A stretch of 24,131 nucleotides of DNA, taken from a virus. Both the position numbers and the translations under genes were made by a program. The DNA lies in IMG/VR virus record IMGVR_UViG_3300025704_000107, positions 1 to 24,131 of that record; one strand, written 5' to 3'. The notes under the pieces were generated by a model. It worked only from the letters and a program-made list of their open reading frames with translations. It ran no database searches and was not told where the DNA came from. Below, piece after piece: positions 685-21,311 of this stretch; the first letter of the stretch is position 1; the number at the start of each line of letters is the position of its first letter.

Positions 685-1176
685 ATGTATAAAGTTCGTA
701 AGATAAACTTTGGATGGTATAAAAGGAGGCATGGAATTCTATTGGAGAATCTGCCTCCTTTGAAGCAAAAACTTTTATTAGAAAATAATCATATGAAATG
801 GTTAGATTCTGATGTAGATGCCTTTGAGATTATATTTAAGGTTGAGGATATGAATGAGCATGAAAAGAATCCTAACCGTATACTTTGGAATCCTTTTAGA
901 GAAACCTTTACAAATATTAAAGAATTAGAAAAAGACTCTGATTTAGTAGATTGGAATTGTGGAATCTGTAAGATTGAAATTAAATCAAGAATGGATTCTA
1001 AAAAGGTTGAAAACTTTGTATGTAATAAGTGTTCTGAATCACATAACTCATCAAATAAAAGAGTTGATCAAAGAATAATAGATTCATCAATCAACTTTAC
1101 TAAACGCTGTAAAACCTTATTAAAAGGTGAACAGAGGGAGTTCATGACTTACATAAGAAGATCATCTAAGGGATAG
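685..1176 (+). CDS. Hypothetical protein with zinc-ribbon motif
   Basis: This 163-residue protein belongs to no family I recognise. The clear feature is a treble-clef or zinc-ribbon-like pair of CxxC motifs: C92-x2-C95 and C113-x2-C116, separated by 17 residues. The N-terminal 90 residues are rich in aromatic and basic residues, and the C-terminus is basic. A nucleic-acid or protein-binding zinc protein is plausible, but no partner can be named. The ATG at 685 lies 9 nt after the Cys-rich peptide and has no Shine-Dalgarno sequence. A later in-frame ATG at 793 (Met37) is possible; that start would place the hairpin at 722-761 upstream of the gene. The 3' end overlaps the convergent minus-strand gene by 15 nt. 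Confidence 0.6.
   Translation: MYKVRKINFGWYKRRHGILLENLPPLKQKLLLENNHMKWLDSDVDAFEIIFKVEDMNEHEKNPNRILWNPFRETFTNIKELEKDSDLVDWNCGICKIEIKSRMDSKKVENFVCNKCSESHNSSNKRVDQRIIDSSINFTKRCKTLLKGEQREFMTYIRRSSKG
722..761. other. Long two-part inverted repeat (RNA hairpin)
   Basis: AAAGGAGGCA (722-731) is the exact reverse complement of TGCCTCCTTT (752-761), a perfect 10-bp outer stem. Inside it ATTCT (736-740) pairs with AGAAT (746-750) around a 5-nt loop, leaving a small asymmetric internal loop. No T-run follows, so it is not a standard terminator. The left arm holds an AAAGGAGG sequence, which would be a strong Shine-Dalgarno in other bacteria. It is far more GC-rich than its surroundings and lies in the first 80 nt of the zinc-ribbon gene. 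Its role is unknown. Confidence 0.6.
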
Positions 1177-1956
1177 AGCTTCTTCTATGGTTATTTTTTT
1201 AAATGAATCTAATTTGCTTGTAGGGCATGCATTAAAAATCTCTATACCTTTACCTTTAATATGTTCTTTTAGAATATTAAAACCTGGTAAGAAATGTTTG
1301 TTGTAAATGTTATCGGATGTTGCGTTAATTGGATATCCATCATGATAATGACTAGAGCTTCCAACATTTCCCATATCATAACCTAATAAAACTATTCTTT
1401 TGGATCCTAGATGTAATGCTAAGTTAATAGCAGCATAACCACTATTCATACCATGGGATAAGGTATTTAAGGAAGTACTTAGTCCATATTTTTCACCTCT
1501 CTTTAGTAAGTGAATATCCTCACTCATTTCTCGTCTAGGTGCAATTGTATATTTTAAACCTTTGAAACTATCAATATCTTTTTTATGCCAATTATAAAAT
1601 CTGCCATCGGTCCAATAGACAGCATCTGCGTTTGGATAACTTAAAAGAGATTTATTTATAGCTATGGTTTTTTTATTATTTAGCTCAGACCATTTAAAAT
1701 TCTTTAATGAAGGACCTCCTCCAATAATATACACAGTATCGCTAGCATTCCATATTTTAGTTATTGGTTTAAAAACCGTAGGCTGTTTAAATTTAGGTTG
1801 TACATTACTTCTACGAATAGCTGCAACACTAGCAGGTTTTGAAGGTTTATTTACATGGACTTGTACAGGGCCTCTAGTTATATTACTTTTAACATTACTA
1901 GATACAGCCGGGTCTACTTTAACCTTTATAACCTTTCGTATTTTTCTAGGACTCAT
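1162..1956 (-). CDS. Putative MptE/DUF115-like or glycosyltransferase-like Rossmann protein
   Basis: This is the only clear minus-strand gene (264 residues). Residues 1-65 form a basic, low-complexity tail. A Rossmann-type domain follows: VYIIGGGPSL at 75-84, then AINKSL (99-104), AVYWTD (112-117), a Gly/Ala-rich helix (SGYAAINLALHLG, 172-184) and RIVLLGYDMG (187-196), then a His-rich segment (H203, H205). The GGGPSL start and the LLGYD strand resemble the MptE-like/DUF115 family and sialyltransferase-like phage proteins; these are nucleotide- or sugar-nucleotide-binding folds. A surface or DNA glycan-modifying role is possible, but no substrate can be read from the sequence. It is convergent with the zinc-ribbon gene and divergent from gp44. 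The start at 1956 is preferred because the basic tail reads as continuous protein and an A/T-rich leader precedes it. Confidence 0.75.
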   Translation of the reverse strand: MSPRKIRKVIKVKVDPAVSSNVKSNITRGPVQVHVNKPSKPASVAAIRRSNVQPKFKQPTVFKPITKIWNASDTVYIIGGGPSLKNFKWSELNNKKTIAINKSLLSYPNADAVYWTDGRFYNWHKKDIDSFKGLKYTIAPRREMSEDIHLLKRGEKYGLSTSLNTLSHGMNSGYAAINLALHLGSKRIVLLGYDMGNVGSSSHYHDGYPINATSDNIYNKHFLPGFNILKEHIKGKGIEIFNACPTSKLDSFKKITIEEALSLR

Positions 1957-2030: not shown

Positions 2031-2993
2031 ATGAAGAATATCCAAAATGTACTATTAACAGAGAAGTACAGACCACAATCCTTAGATGATTTAATTACGC
2101 CACAGAGAGTTGGGGAAAAGCTAAGCAAAGGAGTTTATCAACATCTATTACTTCATGGTAGTCCAGGTACTGGTAAAACATCTGCTGCTAAGGTACTGGT
2201 AAAACATTTTAAGCATCCATACCTTTATATTAATGCGTCAACAGATACTTCAGTAGATGTTGTAAGAAATAGAATTACTGATTTTTGCGCTAATCGTTCT
2301 ATAATGGATGAGCCAGGAAAAATGAAAGTAATTATACTTGATGAGATTGATGGTGTATCTGATCAATTCTTTAAAGCACTAAGAGCTACTATGGATCAAT
2401 TTGCTGTAAACGCAAGATTCGTTGCAACATGTAATTATATTAATAAAGTACCAGATCCAATTCAATCAAGATTTGAAATGATTGATTTTGATTTTAGTAA
2501 AGAAGAAGAAACTGAAATAATGAAAAGTTACATTATGAGGATTTTTCAAATATGCAAAGAAGAAGGTATTGGGATTGATAAACACGCGGCGGTTGAATTA
2601 GTAAAAAGAAAATTTCCTGATTTGCGAAATATGTTAAATCAGTTACAAGGATTTAAATCACAAGGTGTAGAAACTATAACAGTTGAAAACATTAAACAAT
2701 TCAGTTCAGTATATAAAGATATTTATGATCTTGTTATTGATGGAGAAGATCCTGTAAAAAATTATCAATATATGTTATCTAATTATGCAAATAGAACTGA
2801 TGATGTTTTATCTTCTTTAGGCGCAGAATTTATAGATTTTATAAAACAAGATAGACAATCATATACACAATTTATTCCACAGATAATTGTAACGGTTGCA
2901 AAATATCAGGCACAACGGCAACAGGTAATTGATCCTGCAGTATCAATGCTCGCTTGTATATATGAATTACAAACAATAGTAAACGGGGCATAA
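2031..2993 (+). CDS. 44: Clamp loader large subunit (gp44-like AAA+ ATPase)
   Basis: This 320-residue AAA+ ATPase is almost the length of T4 gp44 (319). In T4, four gp44 subunits with one gp62 open and load the gp45 sliding clamp on primer-template DNA for the replicative polymerase. Visible motifs: Walker A GSPGTGKT (43-50), Walker B VIILDEID (100-107), sensor 1 around TCNY (133-136) and the SRF motif (146-148) carrying the arginine finger. The ending is a helical collar domain, as in RFC small subunits. The N-terminal LTEKYRPQSLDDL is the classic RFC-like start. The stop overlaps the next ATG by one base (TAATG), so translation is likely coupled. The clamp gene (gp45) is not in the window and could lie elsewhere. 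Confidence 0.95.
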   Translation: MKNIQNVLLTEKYRPQSLDDLITPQRVGEKLSKGVYQHLLLHGSPGTGKTSAAKVLVKHFKHPYLYINASTDTSVDVVRNRITDFCANRSIMDEPGKMKVIILDEIDGVSDQFFKALRATMDQFAVNARFVATCNYINKVPDPIQSRFEMIDFDFSKEEETEIMKSYIMRIFQICKEEGIGIDKHAAVELVKRKFPDLRNMLNQLQGFKSQGVETITVENIKQFSSVYKDIYDLVIDGEDPVKNYQYMLSNYANRTDDVLSSLGAEFIDFIKQDRQSYTQFIPQIIVTVAKYQAQRQQVIDPAVSMLACIYELQTIVNGA

Positions 2994-3649
2994 TGGCATA
3001 CGGAGTATATAAAAATACGGAAGAGTTCGAAGAGCAGTTAGCACAATACACTGGTTCTAAATATGCAGTGACATTAGATAATATGAGTAACGGTTTATTC
3101 CTTGCTTTATATTATGAGAATCATGTTAATAAATCTATAGTAGGTGATTCTATAATAATTCCGAATAGAACTTACCCATCAGTCCCTTGTGAAATAATCC
3201 ATGCAGGGTTAAAGGTTAAGTGGAATAAAAAACACCCACAGGTTTTAAAGGGTAAATTAACTGGTGCATATCAATTAAAAGGATCTAATGTTTGGGATTC
3301 AGCATTAACATTTACTGCAGATATGTATAAACCTTCTACTCATATGTGTGTATCGTTTACTGGACCTTTTAAACATTTTAAATTATCTAAAGGCGGTGCA
3401 ATACTAACTGATAGTTTAAAAGCATACCATTGGTTTAAAAGAGCAAGGTATTCAGGTCGTAGGGAATGTTCTTATCATGATGATAATTTTGATATGATTG
3501 GTTGGAATTTTTATATGATGCCAGAATTAGCAGCAAGAGGATTATTATTAATGAACCAATTTTATAACCAGGACGGTACTAAAAAGCATCAAGAAGATTT
3601 AACATTACCTTATCCTGATTTATCAAAATTTAAAATATACGAAAAATGA
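2993..3649 (+). CDS. Half-size DegT/DnrJ/EryC1/StrS-type aminotransferase
   Basis: This 218-residue protein resembles the large PLP-binding domain of sugar aminotransferases of the DegT/AHBA-synthase family, which usually have 360-400 residues. Matching pieces in order: EFEEQLAQYTGSKYAVTLDN (11-30), the PxxTYPSV strand (57-64), WDSAL with Asp102 in the place of the PLP-pyridine Asp, SFTGPFKHFKLSKGG (121-135) matching the SF..K..x..GEGG segment that holds the Schiff-base Lys (K127 or K130), and GWNFYMMPELAARGL (170-184) matching the G-N-RM-E-AA-GL motif. The C-terminal small domain is missing. Whether it is catalytic is unclear: the GE before GG is replaced by SK. It overlaps gp44 by one base and the next ORF by four, so it is embedded in the replication operon. 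Family assignment is fairly secure; activity is not. Confidence 0.75.
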   Translation: MAYGVYKNTEEFEEQLAQYTGSKYAVTLDNMSNGLFLALYYENHVNKSIVGDSIIIPNRTYPSVPCEIIHAGLKVKWNKKHPQVLKGKLTGAYQLKGSNVWDSALTFTADMYKPSTHMCVSFTGPFKHFKLSKGGAILTDSLKAYHWFKRARYSGRRECSYHDDNFDMIGWNFYMMPELAARGLLLMNQFYNQDGTKKHQEDLTLPYPDLSKFKIYEK

Positions 3650-3801
3650 CAGAAGAATTTTTAGAAAAACTTATAATTAAATATCCTAATTTCATGGAGC
3701 TAGGTGCAGCTGTTACCAGATATAAGTCACTTCTTAATGATGGAATAGATATAAAAGAAATTGAAAAACAAACTTTATCAGGTTCTTTCAGAACTCTGTA
3801 A
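3646..3801 (+). CDS. Hypothetical 51-residue protein
   Basis: This short ORF starts in an ATGA overlap with the aminotransferase stop, a usual sign of coupled translation. It encodes 51 residues, mainly helical by composition (EEFLEKLIIKYPNFMELG, then a KEIEKQTLSG segment). No motif or family is recognised. It ends 33 nt before the nuclease gene. It could be a remnant or a small partner of its neighbours. Confidence 0.55.
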   Translation: MTEEFLEKLIIKYPNFMELGAAVTRYKSLLNDGIDIKEIEKQTLSGSFRTL

Positions 3802-3834: not shown

Positions 3835-5058
3835 ATGAAGAAAACTGGCAGACATACATTTGTAATAGATGGTAATTATTTTCTATTTAGAACATTATAT
3901 GTAATACCTACAAGATCTAAAGAAAAAGGTTTATTAGGTACAGAAGAAGATGTACAGGCTTTTGTTAAAAAATTGGCAACTGACTTTGCATATCAAATTA
4001 GATTATTTGAAGGTCTTATCGATAAGGTTGTTTGGACGGTAGATTCAAGATCATGGAGAAAAGACTTTTACCCAGAGGCAGAATATAAAGGTAATCGTAA
4101 ACAAAACGATGCTCTTAACTGGGAGAACTTTTCAAAAGCAACAGCTGACTTTATTTCTATTTTGTCTAAGCAAGGTGTTATCATTTCAAAAATTGACGGA
4201 GCCGAAGGTGACGATTTAATGTATGCATGGAATACTGAATGTCTTGCAAATGACAAATCAGTTATTATGTTTACTGGAGATAGAGACTTAGTTCAATTAG
4301 TAGATAAGAGCAAAAGCAATCATACTCATACTATTCTATTTTCACCAGCCCATAAAAAATTATATACTTACCAAGGTTTTTCTGAATGGATGGATTCTCA
4401 AACTGAAGAAGAACAATCTGATGATATATTTGATGTACTAAAAACTTCTGTATCACCAGAGAATCAGGCTAAGAAATTACTTAAAGCATTGGTCGCAAAG
4501 AAAAAGGTTTCTATTATAGAGGTTGATCCTGAAGACTTCCGTTTCCGTAAAGTCCTCACAGGAGATGCTGGTGATAATGTACCACCTGCTTACTATTATA
4601 AAAAAGGTAATAGGAGATATGGTATCAGTGAAAACAAGGCAACTGCTATCATCGCTGAGTTCAAAGAAAAACATGGCCACTTGTCTCATATGTATCTTTA
4701 TAATGATGAGTATATTACTGACCTTGCAAATATGACCGTAAGAGTTATGAATGCAAAACATATGAGCAGAGAACAGATTATTACTAATCTAAAATCTAAT
4801 GTTAATCTTATGGTACTTGCTGCTGAATCAATACCAGAAGGTATCCTAGATGAAATGTTTAAATCAGTAGAATCAAAAATGAATGTAAAAGGTTTGCAAT
4901 TAAAAACGATCTCTACAATGAAATCTATTTTAGAGAATACTGAATACTCAAAAGAAACTGATAGTTCTTTTAAGGCTGCATTCTTTAAAGATGATGATAG
5001 TGATTCTGATGATATGTCTTTTATAAAAGGTGGTAAAAAACAAGATAAGATTTTTTAA
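3835..5058 (+). CDS. rnh: FEN/5'-3' exonuclease family nuclease (T4 RNase H-like)
   Basis: This 407-residue PIN/FEN-fold nuclease probably removes RNA primers and flaps during lagging-strand synthesis, like T4 RNase H (305 residues). Metal-binding acidic residues are visible: D12 (FVIDGNYFLFR), D70 (WTVD), E124/D126/D127 (DGAEGDDLMY), D149/D151 (TGDRD) and D244/D247 (LTGDAGDNVPP). AEYKGNRK (82-89) is the helical-arch segment with the conserved YK-x-RK. RRYGISENKATAII (260-273) is the helix-hairpin-helix DNA-binding part. The extra length is in a roughly 60-residue insertion (about 175-235) and in the C-terminus, which has a very acidic stretch (DDDSDSDD) and ends GGKKQDKIF; such tails often bind a clamp or SSB, but that is inference. 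It follows the clamp-loader region, which fits a replication role. Confidence 0.9.
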   Translation: MKKTGRHTFVIDGNYFLFRTLYVIPTRSKEKGLLGTEEDVQAFVKKLATDFAYQIRLFEGLIDKVVWTVDSRSWRKDFYPEAEYKGNRKQNDALNWENFSKATADFISILSKQGVIISKIDGAEGDDLMYAWNTECLANDKSVIMFTGDRDLVQLVDKSKSNHTHTILFSPAHKKLYTYQGFSEWMDSQTEEEQSDDIFDVLKTSVSPENQAKKLLKALVAKKKVSIIEVDPEDFRFRKVLTGDAGDNVPPAYYYKKGNRRYGISENKATAIIAEFKEKHGHLSHMYLYNDEYITDLANMTVRVMNAKHMSREQIITNLKSNVNLMVLAAESIPEGILDEMFKSVESKMNVKGLQLKTISTMKSILENTEYSKETDSSFKAAFFKDDDSDSDDMSFIKGGKKQDKIF

Positions 5059-5097: not shown

Positions 5098-5514
5098 ATG
5101 AAATTATTTGACTATATAAAAGTACTTTTCGGTAAAGATGTTAATTGGGATAAGGTATCTAATTATGATAAATCTAAAAATTCATTTATGACTAATAGGT
5201 TTATGAGTATTAAGTTCCCTATCCAAGCGAATATGTTTAATACATTAAAAATAGATCCTGTTGGTCAAGCTGAATCATGGAGATTAATATCTTCTAAATT
5301 TAATAGAGTACCAGGCTTTATTTATACAAAAGTAAAAAAGACACCTAAACAAAAAGCAAAAGAATGGAATCCTAATCCAGCTGCAAAAGAGATGTATATG
5401 AAATTTAACGAAATAGGTGAAAGAGAATATAGAGAAGCTCTAAAACATAACCCATCACTAATTAAGTCCTCGATAGATACATTAGAAAAACAAATGGGTA
5501 AAGATGTTAATTGA
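5098..5514 (+). CDS. 62: Probable clamp loader small subunit (gp62-like)
   Basis: This 138-residue protein is short, like the gp62 of T4-like marine phages; T4 gp62 has 187 residues. The central part reads FMTNRFMSIKFPIQANMFNTL (30-50), then W-RLISSKFNRVPGFIYTKVKK. That resembles the gp62 pattern of an 'NR-S-P' helix, an 'AN-MN' helix, then a basic segment before KWAKK-like residues. gp62 is the single wedge subunit holding the four gp44 ATPase subunits; it has no ATP-binding site of its own, and none is seen here. Position supports the call: same replication block, two genes after gp44, though separated from it, unlike T4 where 44 and 62 are adjacent. It overlaps the next gene by 11 nt. Similarity is weak, so the assignment is tentative. 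Confidence 0.45.
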   Translation: MKLFDYIKVLFGKDVNWDKVSNYDKSKNSFMTNRFMSIKFPIQANMFNTLKIDPVGQAESWRLISSKFNRVPGFIYTKVKKTPKQKAKEWNPNPAAKEMYMKFNEIGEREYREALKHNPSLIKSSIDTLEKQMGKDVN

Positions 5515-8623: not shown

Positions 8624-9232
8624 ATGGAAGATAATTCAAAAGATAAATTTAGAGATAGTATCGGAGATTTACTTAATGACTTACCAGATGAAGTACCTGG
8701 TTTAGATGAAACTCCAGAATTATCAAGAGTAAAGATTGAAAGTACACAGGCAGTTGCCTTAACAAAGGCTAAAGGAAAGGCAAAGAAGGTAATGTCCAGT
8801 TTACTTAAGTTTTATTTAAGTGAAGAGATTATTGCTGAACATGAATATATTCAAGCAAAATCTAATTTAGATGAATATGCTTTAGGTATGCTCATTAGAC
8901 AAATGGAGAACAGTGAAATTGCTATTTCTCAATTGATGGATATTATTAATGAGGGTGATGTATCACCAAGAATGTTTGAAGTACTTAGTGATTTACAAAG
9001 AACTTTATTGGATATTATTAAGAGCCAAACTATGTACATGGTGGCTATTGAAGAAAATGCTAAAAAGACTTCCAGAGATATTGATGTTTATCATGGAAAT
9101 TCAGAGAGTAGTAATAATAAAAAACAAAGTGGTGTTAAGTCAAGGGGTACTAAAGATTTAATGCGAGCATTACAAGAAACAATTAACGAAGAAGATATAC
9201 AAGATGTCGATAGCGATGAAAATGAAGAATAG
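8624..9232 (+). CDS. 16: Terminase small subunit (gp16-like)
   Basis: This 202-residue, mostly helical acidic protein lies just before the large terminase, the T4 position of gp16 (164 residues). gp16 forms a ring that recognises concatemeric DNA and stimulates the gp17 motor. The layout matches the family: a variable acidic N-terminus (about 1-45), then a central helical hairpin (about 65-150) with MLIRQMENSEIAISQLMDII and FEVLSDLQRTLLDIIKSQTMYM, which would be the oligomerising coiled coil. A variable polar C-terminus that could bind gp17 follows. There is no catalytic motif, as expected. The last 29 nt overlap the co-chaperonin ORF if that begins at 9204. The call rests on position and helical pattern. 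Confidence 0.8.
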   Translation: MEDNSKDKFRDSIGDLLNDLPDEVPGLDETPELSRVKIESTQAVALTKAKGKAKKVMSSLLKFYLSEEIIAEHEYIQAKSNLDEYALGMLIRQMENSEIAISQLMDIINEGDVSPRMFEVLSDLQRTLLDIIKSQTMYMVAIEENAKKTSRDIDVYHGNSESSNNKKQSGVKSRGTKDLMRALQETINEEDIQDVDSDENEE

Positions 9233-9491
9233 TTATATTCTTACACAAGAAATAGTAAAAGGTGAAAGAAGAACTGATAGCGGCTTAATACTCCCTGATG
9301 AAAAATATAATAGGGTAGCTTTAGTGATTGAAGCAGCCGATGGCCTAGAAGTAAAGAAAGGCGATAAAATAGTAAAAACAATAGGTAAGGGTACTGAATA
9401 TACATTGGATGGAGATAAGTTTGAAATCCTTCATATAAATCATGTTCTTGCCGTAATAGAAGAAGATGGCACAGAAACCGCAAGCGCCTAG
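9204..9491 (+). CDS. GroES-like co-chaperonin (gp31-type)
   Basis: This small protein (95 residues from the first ATG) has the cpn10/GroES pattern: a first strand YILTQEIVKGE (11-21), a mobile-loop-like segment RRTDSGLILPD (22-32) whose SGLIL matches the GGIVL that contacts GroEL, then VALVIEAADG (38-47), LEVKKGDKIV (48-57), a short dome region, DKFEILHINHVLAVIEE (71-87). In T4, gp31 replaces GroES so that host GroEL can fold the major capsid protein gp23; a similar job is inferred here. ATGs at 9216 and 9222 are also possible starts and would reduce the overlap with the small terminase gene. The 3' end overlaps the large terminase start by 26 nt, so it is wedged between the terminase genes. 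Confidence 0.85.
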   Translation: MSIAMKMKNSYILTQEIVKGERRTDSGLILPDEKYNRVALVIEAADGLEVKKGDKIVKTIGKGTEYTLDGDKFEILHINHVLAVIEEDGTETASA

Positions 9492-15268: not shown

Positions 15269-15739
15269 ATGACAATCTTTAAAGTAGTTAATGAAACCGA
15301 TGGAAAAGTTTATGTAGGTTATTCGATTAATGATAACCCTAACAATTTAGGGGCAGGTAAATATATTAAAAGAGCAGTTAAAGATTTTGGAACAAGATCT
15401 TTTCAAAAAACTATTCTTGAAGAATTTGAATCTGAAGAATCATTAAGTCATATAATGGACAGGCTAGAATTTTGGATAAAAAATTATAAAGCCGATAATC
15501 CTAAATATGGATATAACGAAAGCGTACAAGAATTAATTCCACAAAAAAAGAGACTTACTAAAAAACTACAAGTTCTCTTAACACCAGAAGATGAAGATAA
15601 TTTAAATTCAATCATCATCGAAAAATCAATGGAAAATAAAACAAAACCGTTGCCAGTATCCAAATATGTAAGACAGTTAATAGTTAAACATATAGTAGAG
15701 GAAACTGCACCTGAAAAACAATTAATAAAAACTAAATAA
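15269..15739 (+). CDS. Free-standing GIY-YIG homing-type endonuclease
   Basis: This 156-residue protein has the GIY-YIG nuclease layout: IFKVVNETDGKVYVGYS (3-19), with FKV in the GIY place and YVG (15-17) as the second motif; KRAVKDFGTRSFQ with R35; the catalytic Glu E67 in RLEFWIKNY; and GYNES (81-85) closing the domain. Residues about 95-140 are basic and helical (LTPEDEDNLNSIII, VSKYVRQLIVKHIVEE) and could be a ribbon-helix-helix-like DNA-binding tail. In T4, such Seg endonucleases are selfish genes that cut phage DNA lacking them and spread by repair. It is inserted between the tube gene and the tail assembly gene, just after a terminator. The G of GIY is not conserved, so activity is likely but not certain. 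Confidence 0.8.
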   Translation: MTIFKVVNETDGKVYVGYSINDNPNNLGAGKYIKRAVKDFGTRSFQKTILEEFESEESLSHIMDRLEFWIKNYKADNPKYGYNESVQELIPQKKRLTKKLQVLLTPEDEDNLNSIIIEKSMENKTKPLPVSKYVRQLIVKHIVEETAPEKQLIKTK

Positions 15740-20513: not shown

Positions 20514-21311
20514 ATGGAAAATGTAAAAAACATAGTTTGGTTTGACTTAGAAACCACAGGAGTTAACACAAGTAGCGATAGAATTATCGAGATCGCAATG
20601 ATAAAAACCGATTCTGAAGGAAATGAAATAGATTCTTTTCAGTCATTAGTTAATCCCGGCCCAAATGCAGTTATGAGAGAAGAAGCTCAGGACAAGCATG
20701 GCATATCACCAGAACAATTAAAAGATGCACCACAATTTGATTTAATAGCAAAAGAAGTTTTAGACTTTATTGATGATAGTGACTTAGGTGGATATAACGC
20801 GCTTTACTTTGATGTACCAATGCTCGTAGAGGAATTTATGAGAAGTGGTATTGCATTCTCGCATCGCCAAAGAGCTGTAGTAGATCCTTTTTTAATTTAT
20901 TCAAAATATGAACGTAGAGATTTAAGTACTGCATATAAAAAATATACAGGAAAAGATTTAGAAGGCGCTCATAGAGCCGACGTTGATATTCGTGCAACAA
21001 TGGAAATATTCCAAAAGCAAAAAGAACTTTATGATATGCCTACAACAGCAAAAGAAATTGATGATGTTGTAAATGAATCAAGAAAAAATCAAGTAGACCT
21101 TAGTGGTAAATATAAATTTGCTGAAATAAACGGTAAACGAGAAATTGTATTTAACTTTGGTAAAAACAAAGGTAAACCGTTTAAAGAAGTTTATGAAACG
21201 GATGCAAGGTATATTCAATGGATTATTGATAAGGGTGAATTCTCAAAAGAGGTAAAAATCATATCTCGTAAACTCTTAGAAAAAATGAGAGCTGAAAACC
21301 CTGTTATTTAA
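20514..21311 (+). CDS. DnaQ-like 3'-5' exonuclease with ExoX-type C-terminal domain
   Basis: This 265-residue DEDDh exonuclease hydrolyses single nucleotides from DNA 3' ends. Catalytic residues: D11 and E13 in WFDLETTG (9-16), D100 in LYFDVPML, and H153/D158 in GAHRADVDI (151-159). After a linker, residues about 195-262 (YKFAEINGKREIVFNFGKNKGKPFKEV...YIQWIIDKGEF) match the small domain found at the C-terminus of exonuclease X-like proteins and in other phage nucleases; it has a conserved FGKxKGKP turn. It could serve in host DNA degradation, repair or replication proofreading support. It follows the tape measure with an 87-nt gap and a promoter of the replication class, which suggests a separate transcript. 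The start at 20514 fits the usual position of FDLETTG near the N-terminus. Confidence 0.9.
   Translation: MENVKNIVWFDLETTGVNTSSDRIIEIAMIKTDSEGNEIDSFQSLVNPGPNAVMREEAQDKHGISPEQLKDAPQFDLIAKEVLDFIDDSDLGGYNALYFDVPMLVEEFMRSGIAFSHRQRAVVDPFLIYSKYERRDLSTAYKKYTGKDLEGAHRADVDIRATMEIFQKQKELYDMPTTAKEIDDVVNESRKNQVDLSGKYKFAEINGKREIVFNFGKNKGKPFKEVYETDARYIQWIIDKGEFSKEVKIISRKLLEKMRAENPVI

Follow-up and report, generated by a model that had tools for sequence, protein, structure and literature searches.

The window analysed here is the whole of a 24,131-base virus record (IMG/VR record IMGVR_UViG_3300025704_000107, positions 1 to 24,131), and our subject is an open reading frame (ORF; P0001, 2993..3649, plus strand) in it that encodes a DegT-like protein of 218 amino acids (aa), roughly half as long as the Pfam DegT model. 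Conserved residues, a predicted fold and gene neighbourhoods suggest that this half-size protein, hereafter half-DegT, is probably a miniaturised pyridoxal 5′-phosphate (PLP) enzyme of amino-sugar synthesis, descended from the DegT/DnrJ/EryC1/StrS family and carrying out an aminotransferase-like step. By sequence comparison it is nearest to GDP-perosamine synthase. Its start codon shares the last base of the stop codon of a gp44-like clamp-loader gene (..TAATG..), and at its other end it shares 4 bases with the beginning of a 51-aa ORF.

Conservation, active site and predicted fold

In a Pfam search the window protein matched PF01041 (DegT_DnrJ_EryC1) with 47 bits against a cut-off of 19.8, and three other members of the family scored 42, 64 and 78 bits. 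When IMG/VR was scanned with the window protein, a relative was encoded in 481 of 484 pattern-matched stretches, far beyond chance; the best 80 of the 481 were retained, with matches that cover virtually the entire query. The half-size ORF with its one-base overlap, as proposed by an earlier sequence-only reading of this DNA, is real. A second IMG/VR scan with the relative from Synechococcus phage S-SCSM2R found a relative in 197 of 203 stretches, of which the best 80 were kept (the totals of 481 and 197 may overlap and are not additive). Two subfamilies can be distinguished, A, which includes the window protein, and B, with members of about 195 aa that are about 30% identical to those of A. 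Scanning species genomes with a seven-sequence alignment yielded relatives in 19 of 38 matches, including a 919-kb Woesearchaeota chromosome, a 335-kb Neomarinimicrobiota contig and a 380-kb alphaproteobacterial contig; half-DegT members are thus found on contigs of both bacterial and archaeal assemblies. Seven of the 50,697 records of an annotated phage collection matched, four of them being records of Flavobacterium phage immuto. The immuto half-DegT is annotated as 'dTDP-4-amino-4,6-dideoxygalactose transaminase', the same name as that of the full-size gene of its cluster, and the family is hidden by such annotation. Among the papers listed by literature searches, none was recognisable from its title and the start of its abstract as describing a half-size DegT.

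The fetched loci gave a set of 181 half-size ORFs (140 distinct), 87 of subfamily A and 94 of subfamily B; two of the 183 loci given (L185 and L186) were left out because the ORF picker had chosen an overlapping ORF. All 11 closest relatives are 217-218 aa long, and none is full-length. The ratio of non-synonymous to synonymous substitution rates (dN/dS) was 0.039-0.102 in nine of nine comparisons with window-clade relatives, all of which share the window gene and some of which involve near-identical relatives; the corresponding values for gp44 were 0.016-0.030. We conclude that the half-DegT proteins form a conserved compact family and are not fragments. In a tree of only 35 + 13 sequences, half-size and full-size proteins were split with support 1.0, which we did not take as evidence of a single origin. 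One locus (L107:4001-4585) has two in-frame stop codons within its half-DegT match, leaving an ORF of 172 aa, and is possibly a broken or frameshifted copy.

Residue roles were transferred by alignment and motif from Spr1654, for which an excerpt of PMC5936713 describes Lys199 as forming the Schiff base, Asp170 as contacting the ring nitrogen, Ser194 and Thr59 as binding the phosphate and Tyr84 as lying against the PLP ring. Lys127, Asp102, Ser121, Tyr61, Tyr174 and Gly134-Gly135 are invariant in all 181 half-size ORFs, and position 32 is Thr in 93 and Ser in 88 of them. Asp102 (codon 3296..3298; this and the following codons are on the plus strand), the putative ring-nitrogen Asp, is paired by hhalign with the Asp of full-size phage DegTs, while Ser121 (3353..3355) would by motif be the counterpart of the phosphate-binding Ser194 of Spr1654 (PMC5936713, excerpt). 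Lys127 (3371..3373) is the predicted Schiff-base Lys: in a profile alignment it falls on the Lys at chain index 188/206 of Caulobacter perosamine synthetase, taken, with an inferred offset, to be the K186 named in the title of PDB entry 3dr4. The sequence-only reading had picked out Asp102 and either Lys127 or Lys130; Asp102 and Lys127 stand and the Schiff-base Lys is not replaced, but Lys130 does not align to it. A GxNxxM-like motif, also claimed, is present in the window protein (GWNFYM) but is weaker than had been supposed, since at position 172 the 181 ORFs are divided between His (93) and Asn (88), with Tyr174 invariant. These counts were made on the full set because our alignments A3 (72 rows, without L107, on account of its stop codons, and several near relatives) and A4 (69 rows) were hand-picked; the results were the same in kind.

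Two positions differ consistently from those of sugar aminotransferases. Residue 133, the position of the Glu of the GEGG motif, is Lys in 93 and Arg in 88 of the 181 ORFs (Lys133 in the window, codon 3389..3391); the window protein has Ser-Lys for GE, as had been noticed from the sequence. Three residues after the conserved Asp (Asp+3) stands Val in 88, Leu in 87, Thr in three, Ala in two and Lys in one, so that a Gln or His partner of the PLP O3′ occurs in none. Gln is an alternative to His as O3′ partner at Asp+3. Of the 26 full-size phage DegTs used for comparison, 22 have an acidic residue (Asp or Glu) at the GEGG Glu position, and every one has His, Glu, Asp or Gln at Asp+3. In the excerpt of PMC5936713 the GEGG Glu (Glu205) is called 'conserved among all SATs' (sugar aminotransferases) and linked to amino-donor binding, and His is given as the O3′ partner at Asp+3. 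The charge reversal from Glu to Lys or Arg suggests that the amino donor is bound otherwise than in ordinary sugar aminotransferases.

AlphaFold2 models were obtained for the window protein (alignment A4, 69 sequences), with a mean predicted local distance difference test score (pLDDT) of 94.3 and a predicted template modelling score (pTM) of 0.91, and for a 201-residue protein of the second subfamily (alignment A5, 50 sequences), with values of 93.8 and 0.91. The main domain of the window model contains seven strands (24-28, 53-57, 74-78, 88-90, 100-102, 117-121 and 134-139), and in this model the seven-stranded large PLP domain of DegT is kept. Among the matches listed by Foldseek for PDB structures, the first seven for the window model were GDP-perosamine synthase chains (best E 3.6e-10), and for the second model GDP-perosamine synthases came second, behind 7b0m. 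Among those listed by VIA-align, the window model matched 3dr7 with Z 17.8 (root-mean-square deviation (rmsd) 3.6, 200 aligned residues; top Z 18.9, 7b0d) and the second model matched it with Z 18.4 (top 19.6); rows that differ by no more than 1 count as ties, so perosamine synthase does not stand out by structure. A search of PDB sequences with the A4 profile placed perosamine synthetase first (3bn1, 55 bits, E 8.2e-14). The closest viral model, BFVD A0A5Q2W5Y7 (rmsd 2.4 over 187 columns), is an unnamed protein of 316 residues, perhaps a half-DegT with an extra domain.

An hhalign comparison paired residues 6-195 of the half-size protein with residues 37-256 of 378 of full-size phage DegTs (probability 99.3), the half-size protein being shorter by a net of about 30 residues in its central part. 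The C-terminal small domain is gone, as the sequence-only reading had stated, and the protein stops after a short tail. A profile of the 26 full-size phage DegTs, run over the fetched loci, found no stand-alone ORF for the C-terminal domain beside the half-size gene, so the second ORF that might have supplied it did not turn up; the search returned the 181 half-size ORFs, 26 full-size ones and six partial matches, five of which (L016, L018, L021, L122 and L159) lie at the ends of fetched stretches. The sixth, L065:8364-9182, lies inside its stretch and encodes a differently shortened DegT-like protein of 272 aa that covers profile positions 38-257 of 379, possibly a second, independent shortening.

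The tail itself is conserved, reading YPDLSKFKIY in the window protein (codons 207-216, 3611..3640) and WPDLTQMEIF in the second subfamily. Structural alignments of the 218-residue model end at residue 329 of 3bn1, 3dr4 and 3dr7, 343 of 1o61 and 326 of 7b0m, and those of the 201-residue model at 328, 342 and 325 of the same structures. These end points are far inside the C-terminal domain and not at the end of the large domain. Tyr216 and Phe200 coincide with the aromatic residue that closes a PxHxxPxY-like loop (Y327, F341 and Y324, with a numbering offset of 2 inferred for 3bn1 and of 0 assumed for 1o61 and 7b0m). Judging from these end points, the tail seems to occupy the site of this loop, the remainder of the C-terminal domain having been cut away; the placement is limited by VIA-align printing only the first and last aligned residues. 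MAFFT instead puts the tail at the extreme C-terminus of the full-size proteins, and we preferred the structural ranges; 4zwv was not used here because its loop sequence differs.

Gene neighbourhoods of the half-DegT genes

Neighbouring genes were counted for 100 representatives (40 of subfamily A and 60 of subfamily B) obtained by clustering the half-DegT proteins at 90% identity. In subfamily A, 28 of 40 representatives have a NeuD/PglD-like acetyltransferase as the next gene and 34 have one somewhere on the stretch; the label is based on a TIGR03570 score of 155 bits for one member (cut-off 160.8) and on hexapeptide repeats in two. In subfamily B, 32 of 60 representatives have as their next gene a member of a short-chain dehydrogenase/reductase (SDR) cluster. 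Of those 32 genes, 30 are matched by the NCBI model for GDP-mannose 4,6-dehydratase, gmd, at E<=1e-70, although the scores seen (366 and 371, for L108 and L119) are under the NCBI cut-off of 415; a WbuC-cupin-like gene, labelled from one member that scored below its cut-off, is on the stretch in 37. The half-DegT gene overlaps the next gene by 4 bases in 67 of the 100 representatives, and in a few other loci a WbqC-like gene follows it directly. In phage immuto it lies among glycosyltransferase genes, with a full-size WecE gene also present, and in S-SCSM2R it is accompanied by glycosyltransferases, 2-oxoglutarate (2OG)-Fe(II) oxygenases, a radical S-adenosylmethionine (radical-SAM) protein and an annotated inosamine amidinotransferase that has no Pfam match. 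The substrate of acetyl- as well as amidinotransferases is an amine, so such neighbours fit a transaminase. Only 26 of the 181 loci also have a full-size DegT within the fetched stretch. Nine of these 26 full-size proteins (L034, L035, L037, L079, L108, L112, L145, L164 and L177) have His at the position of the Schiff-base Lys, as in ColD-type dehydratases.

In the window, the half-DegT gene directly follows the gene for the gp44-like clamp-loader large subunit (2031..2993, plus strand), an identity proposed earlier and borne out by phrog_168 (241 bits) and PF21328 Gp44_lid (49 bits). It is followed on the same strand by the 51-aa ORF (3646..3801), a 5′-3′ exonuclease-like gene (3835..5058; PF02739, 58.5 bits) and a probable gp62-like clamp-loader small subunit gene (5098..5514), whose product matches a phrog_225-related family over residues 2-58 by profile. 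While the 5098..5514 protein itself has no phrog_225 match, its family matched by hhalign (probability 79%, E 1.5e-5; at most 0.6% for five control families) a family whose genes lie downstream of gp44 in other phages with half-DegT; two of its members (L012 and L071) match the gp62 model phrog_225 with 55 and 60 bits. As had been claimed, the gene thus probably lies within the clamp-loader region, between the two clamp-loader genes, with the 51-aa ORF and the exonuclease-like gene intervening before the second. The idea that half-DegT replaces gp62 was dropped once the probable gp62 had been found in the window. A phrog_225 search detected no gp62 in seven of seven window-clade records or in immuto while matching the T4 record, an empty result that told little, given the candidate found later. 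On the opposite strand, ahead of gp44, lies a sialyltransferase/WaaZ/MptE-like gene, probably for a glycosyltransferase (1162..1956, minus strand; phrog_4603, 135 bits), with weaker matches to PF01973 (31 bits, below cut-off) and TIGR04437 (21.5 bits, far below cut-off).

This arrangement is shared by all 11 close relatives (L001-L011), which keep the order gp44, half-DegT, 51-aa ORF and exonuclease, with half-DegT directly after gp44, and also carry the sialyltransferase-like gene. The 51-aa ORF, present in 11 of 11 window-clade loci, occupies the position that the NeuD-like gene has elsewhere; it matches no Pfam family at E<=1, and its sole PHROG match is phrog_6190 (E 0.14). Another 14 subfamily A loci likewise have gp44 within their stretch, its product being about 28-31% identical to the window gp44 over the longer matches. 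Of these loci, 12 were measured; in all 12, half-DegT starts 1.6-4.6 kb downstream of gp44 with a gp62-family gene between them, and hence stands after both clamp-loader genes. As a NeuD-like or WbqC-like gene lies within two genes after half-DegT in the 14 loci, the shared place looks like a landing site of glycan cassettes. We suggest that glycan genes recurrently land beside the clamp loader and that the window clade retains only half-DegT.

On the longest window-clade contig (L191, 77 kb), glycan genes are clustered about 27 kb upstream of half-DegT, with a GNAT-WbqC fusion, a GT2 glycosyltransferase, HAD, nucleotidyltransferase-like and weakly glycosyltransferase-like genes, an SDR, a C5-cytosine methylase and a WavE-like gene. 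As for a gmd-like gene near half-DegT, the six window-clade contigs show only an SDR gene, about 27 kb away, on the two longest of them. The C5-cytosine methylase gene (L191:8945-10207) stands right after the SDR gene, and another (L181:7100-8086) lies two genes after the Woesearchaeota half-DegT.

The presence of gp44 and a tail sheath makes the window phage a T4-like myovirus, presumably with a large genome. Its terminase is nearest to that of the metagenomic phage record LR756500 (462 kb, 49% identity), followed by others that include those of Sphingomonas phage PAU and Tenacibaculum phage PTm1 (36%). The window also contains a GroES-like co-chaperonin ORF that overlaps the start of the terminase ORF (9204-9491; phrog_3188, 41.6 bits) and a homing-endonuclease-like ORF between a tail-tube-like gene and a weak baseplate-hub match (15269-15739; phrog_314, 39 bits). 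An exonuclease-type polymerase piece is encoded at 20514-21311 (phrog_192) and a separate piece of 372 aa on the related 77-kb contig (L191:13026-14144; phrog_1918); the replicative polymerase may be encoded in two parts by separate genes.

Proposed function and alternative readings

Because half-DegT has neither the GEGG Glu nor a Gln/His partner for O3′ and lacks the C-terminal domain, it would be a compact variant descended from the DegT family and not an ordinary DegT aminotransferase. Besides the net loss in the middle, the N-terminal arm and nearly the whole C-terminal domain have been lost; a 10-residue loop of the latter seems to survive as the tail, which a short linker connects to where the large domain ends. 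The protein most likely forms a homodimer, in which PLP would be bound to Lys127, with its ring nitrogen held by Asp102 and its phosphate by Ser121 and Ser/Thr32. An amino group would pass from a donor to a keto-sugar nucleotide such as GDP-4-keto-6-deoxymannose, the resulting amine would be acetylated or otherwise capped by neighbouring enzymes, and glycosyltransferases would then transfer the capped amino sugar, perhaps to a phage or host glycan. Of the uses suggested in the sequence-only reading for a minimal amino-group enzyme, the sugar or surface one is well supported by the predicted site and fold together with the neighbourhoods, whereas DNA or nucleotide modification has gained little positive support.

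Several observations weigh against this proposal. Two features of sugar aminotransferases, the GEGG Glu and Gln/His at Asp+3, are lost from the aligned sequences along with the small domain; the gmd scores and the shared window gene in the dN/dS comparisons have the limits given above; and in the 26 loci with a full-size DegT the latter could do the transamination. The window clade adds further points. No GDP_Man_Dehyd-family gene was found on four of its six contigs, and the SDR of the 77-kb contig fits Epimerase (158 bits) better than GDP_Man_Dehyd (138 bits). A search for relatives of the immuto NeuD-like gene at E<=0.1, run with no positive control, found none in any of the six, which are possibly fragments, and a Hexapep search of the same possibly fragmentary contigs, which matched immuto but not S-SCSM2R, was likewise empty.

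We also raise, tentatively and at somewhat less than even odds, a broader proposal: that half-DegTs constitute an undescribed class of miniature fold-type-I PLP enzymes, spread across large marine phages and some bacteria and archaea and derived from a DegT sugar aminotransferase of which the large domain and a single active-site loop remain. Their re-wired cofactor pocket (Lys/Arg for Glu) would allow them to use another amino donor or catalyse another amino-sugar step. In that case they would be among the smallest fold-type-I aminotransferases known to us, and the C-terminal domain would prove dispensable.

An active PLP enzyme of a glycan pathway might instead carry out a different reaction on an amino sugar (deamination, racemisation or a lyase step) or use an unusual donor. 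The uniform Lys/Arg for Glu and the missing Gln/His at Asp+3 would suit this alternative, as would the radical-SAM, 2OG-Fe(II) oxygenase and annotated amidinotransferase neighbours of some subfamily B members. We nevertheless consider it unlikely, because the commonest neighbours, an acetyltransferase and a GMD-like dehydratase, are classical partners of sugar transaminases and the Schiff-base Lys is kept, unlike in ColD-type dehydratases with their His.

It is very improbable that the PLP fold has been turned into a non-enzymatic binding or scaffold protein, as the sequence-only reading had offered as its second option. Such a role would be in keeping with a protein that misses its C-terminal domain and, in the pocket, both the GEGG Glu and the O3′ partner, but the PLP-site Lys, Asp, Ser and Tyr, together with Ser/Thr32, are kept in 181 of 181 ORFs across subfamilies only about 30% identical, and a mere binder would not need them.

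We give equally little credence to a role of the window-clade protein in replication, as a clamp-loader accessory or a nucleotide-aminating enzyme for DNA modification. Its constant place right after gp44 and ahead of the probable gp62, the gp44 genes of the 14 further loci and the C5-cytosine methylases of L181 and L191 point that way; set against them are the NeuD-like or WbqC-like genes close by in the 14 loci and, in the window clade itself, the sialyltransferase-like gene that flanks gp44. That the gene is a decaying fragment of a full-size DegT, as its half-length match to the Pfam model and the stop codons of L107 might hint, we regard as all but ruled out by co-linear relatives of the same length on hundreds of contigs, a dN/dS of 0.04-0.10 and a compact fold predicted with high confidence.

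Fold-type-I aminotransferases are described in an excerpt of PMC9309667 as two-domain enzymes with active sites formed between subunits. If half-DegT, a conserved and abundant form that lacks the C-terminal domain, is an amino-sugar aminotransferase, as we favour, the minimal catalytic unit would be defined and a natural small sugar aminotransferase would become available. Phages would moreover be seen to produce amino sugars of their own by dedicated, streamlined enzymes, probably for decorating virions or host surfaces.

Comparison with known systems

The closest known counterpart is the Caulobacter GDP-perosamine synthase (3bn1, 3dr4 and 3dr7), which half-DegT resembles in its best profile match, in the first Foldseek matches of the window model and in the aligned Schiff-base Lys; as to context, a gmd-like gene is directly next door in 30 of the 60 subfamily B representatives, and in the window clade there is only the distant SDR of two contigs. 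By VIA-align, this enzyme ties with many other sugar aminotransferases. It differs from half-DegT in its length of about 370 aa against 195-218 aa and in having a C-terminal domain, the GEGG Glu and a polar Asp+3.

DegT enzymes are paired with NeuD/PglD acetyltransferases in amino-sugar acetylation of the PglE/PglD type. The 28 of 40 subfamily A representatives in which a NeuD/PglD-like gene follows the DegT-like gene resemble such pairs, but here the DegT partner is half-size, and the window clade has no such gene next door. The full-size DegTs of the same phage clusters, such as the WecE-like protein of immuto and the LegC/PseC-like protein of L171, share a stretch with half-DegT in the 26 loci mentioned and differ from it in their 378-399 aa and complete C-terminal domain. 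ColD-type pyridoxamine 5′-phosphate 3-dehydratases have His in place of the Schiff-base Lys, which fits the PDB titles 'ColD H188N' and 'H188K', whereas half-DegT has Lys in 181 of 181 ORFs. With other fold-type-I aminotransferases half-DegT has in common the seven-stranded large domain, the Lys and the Asp.

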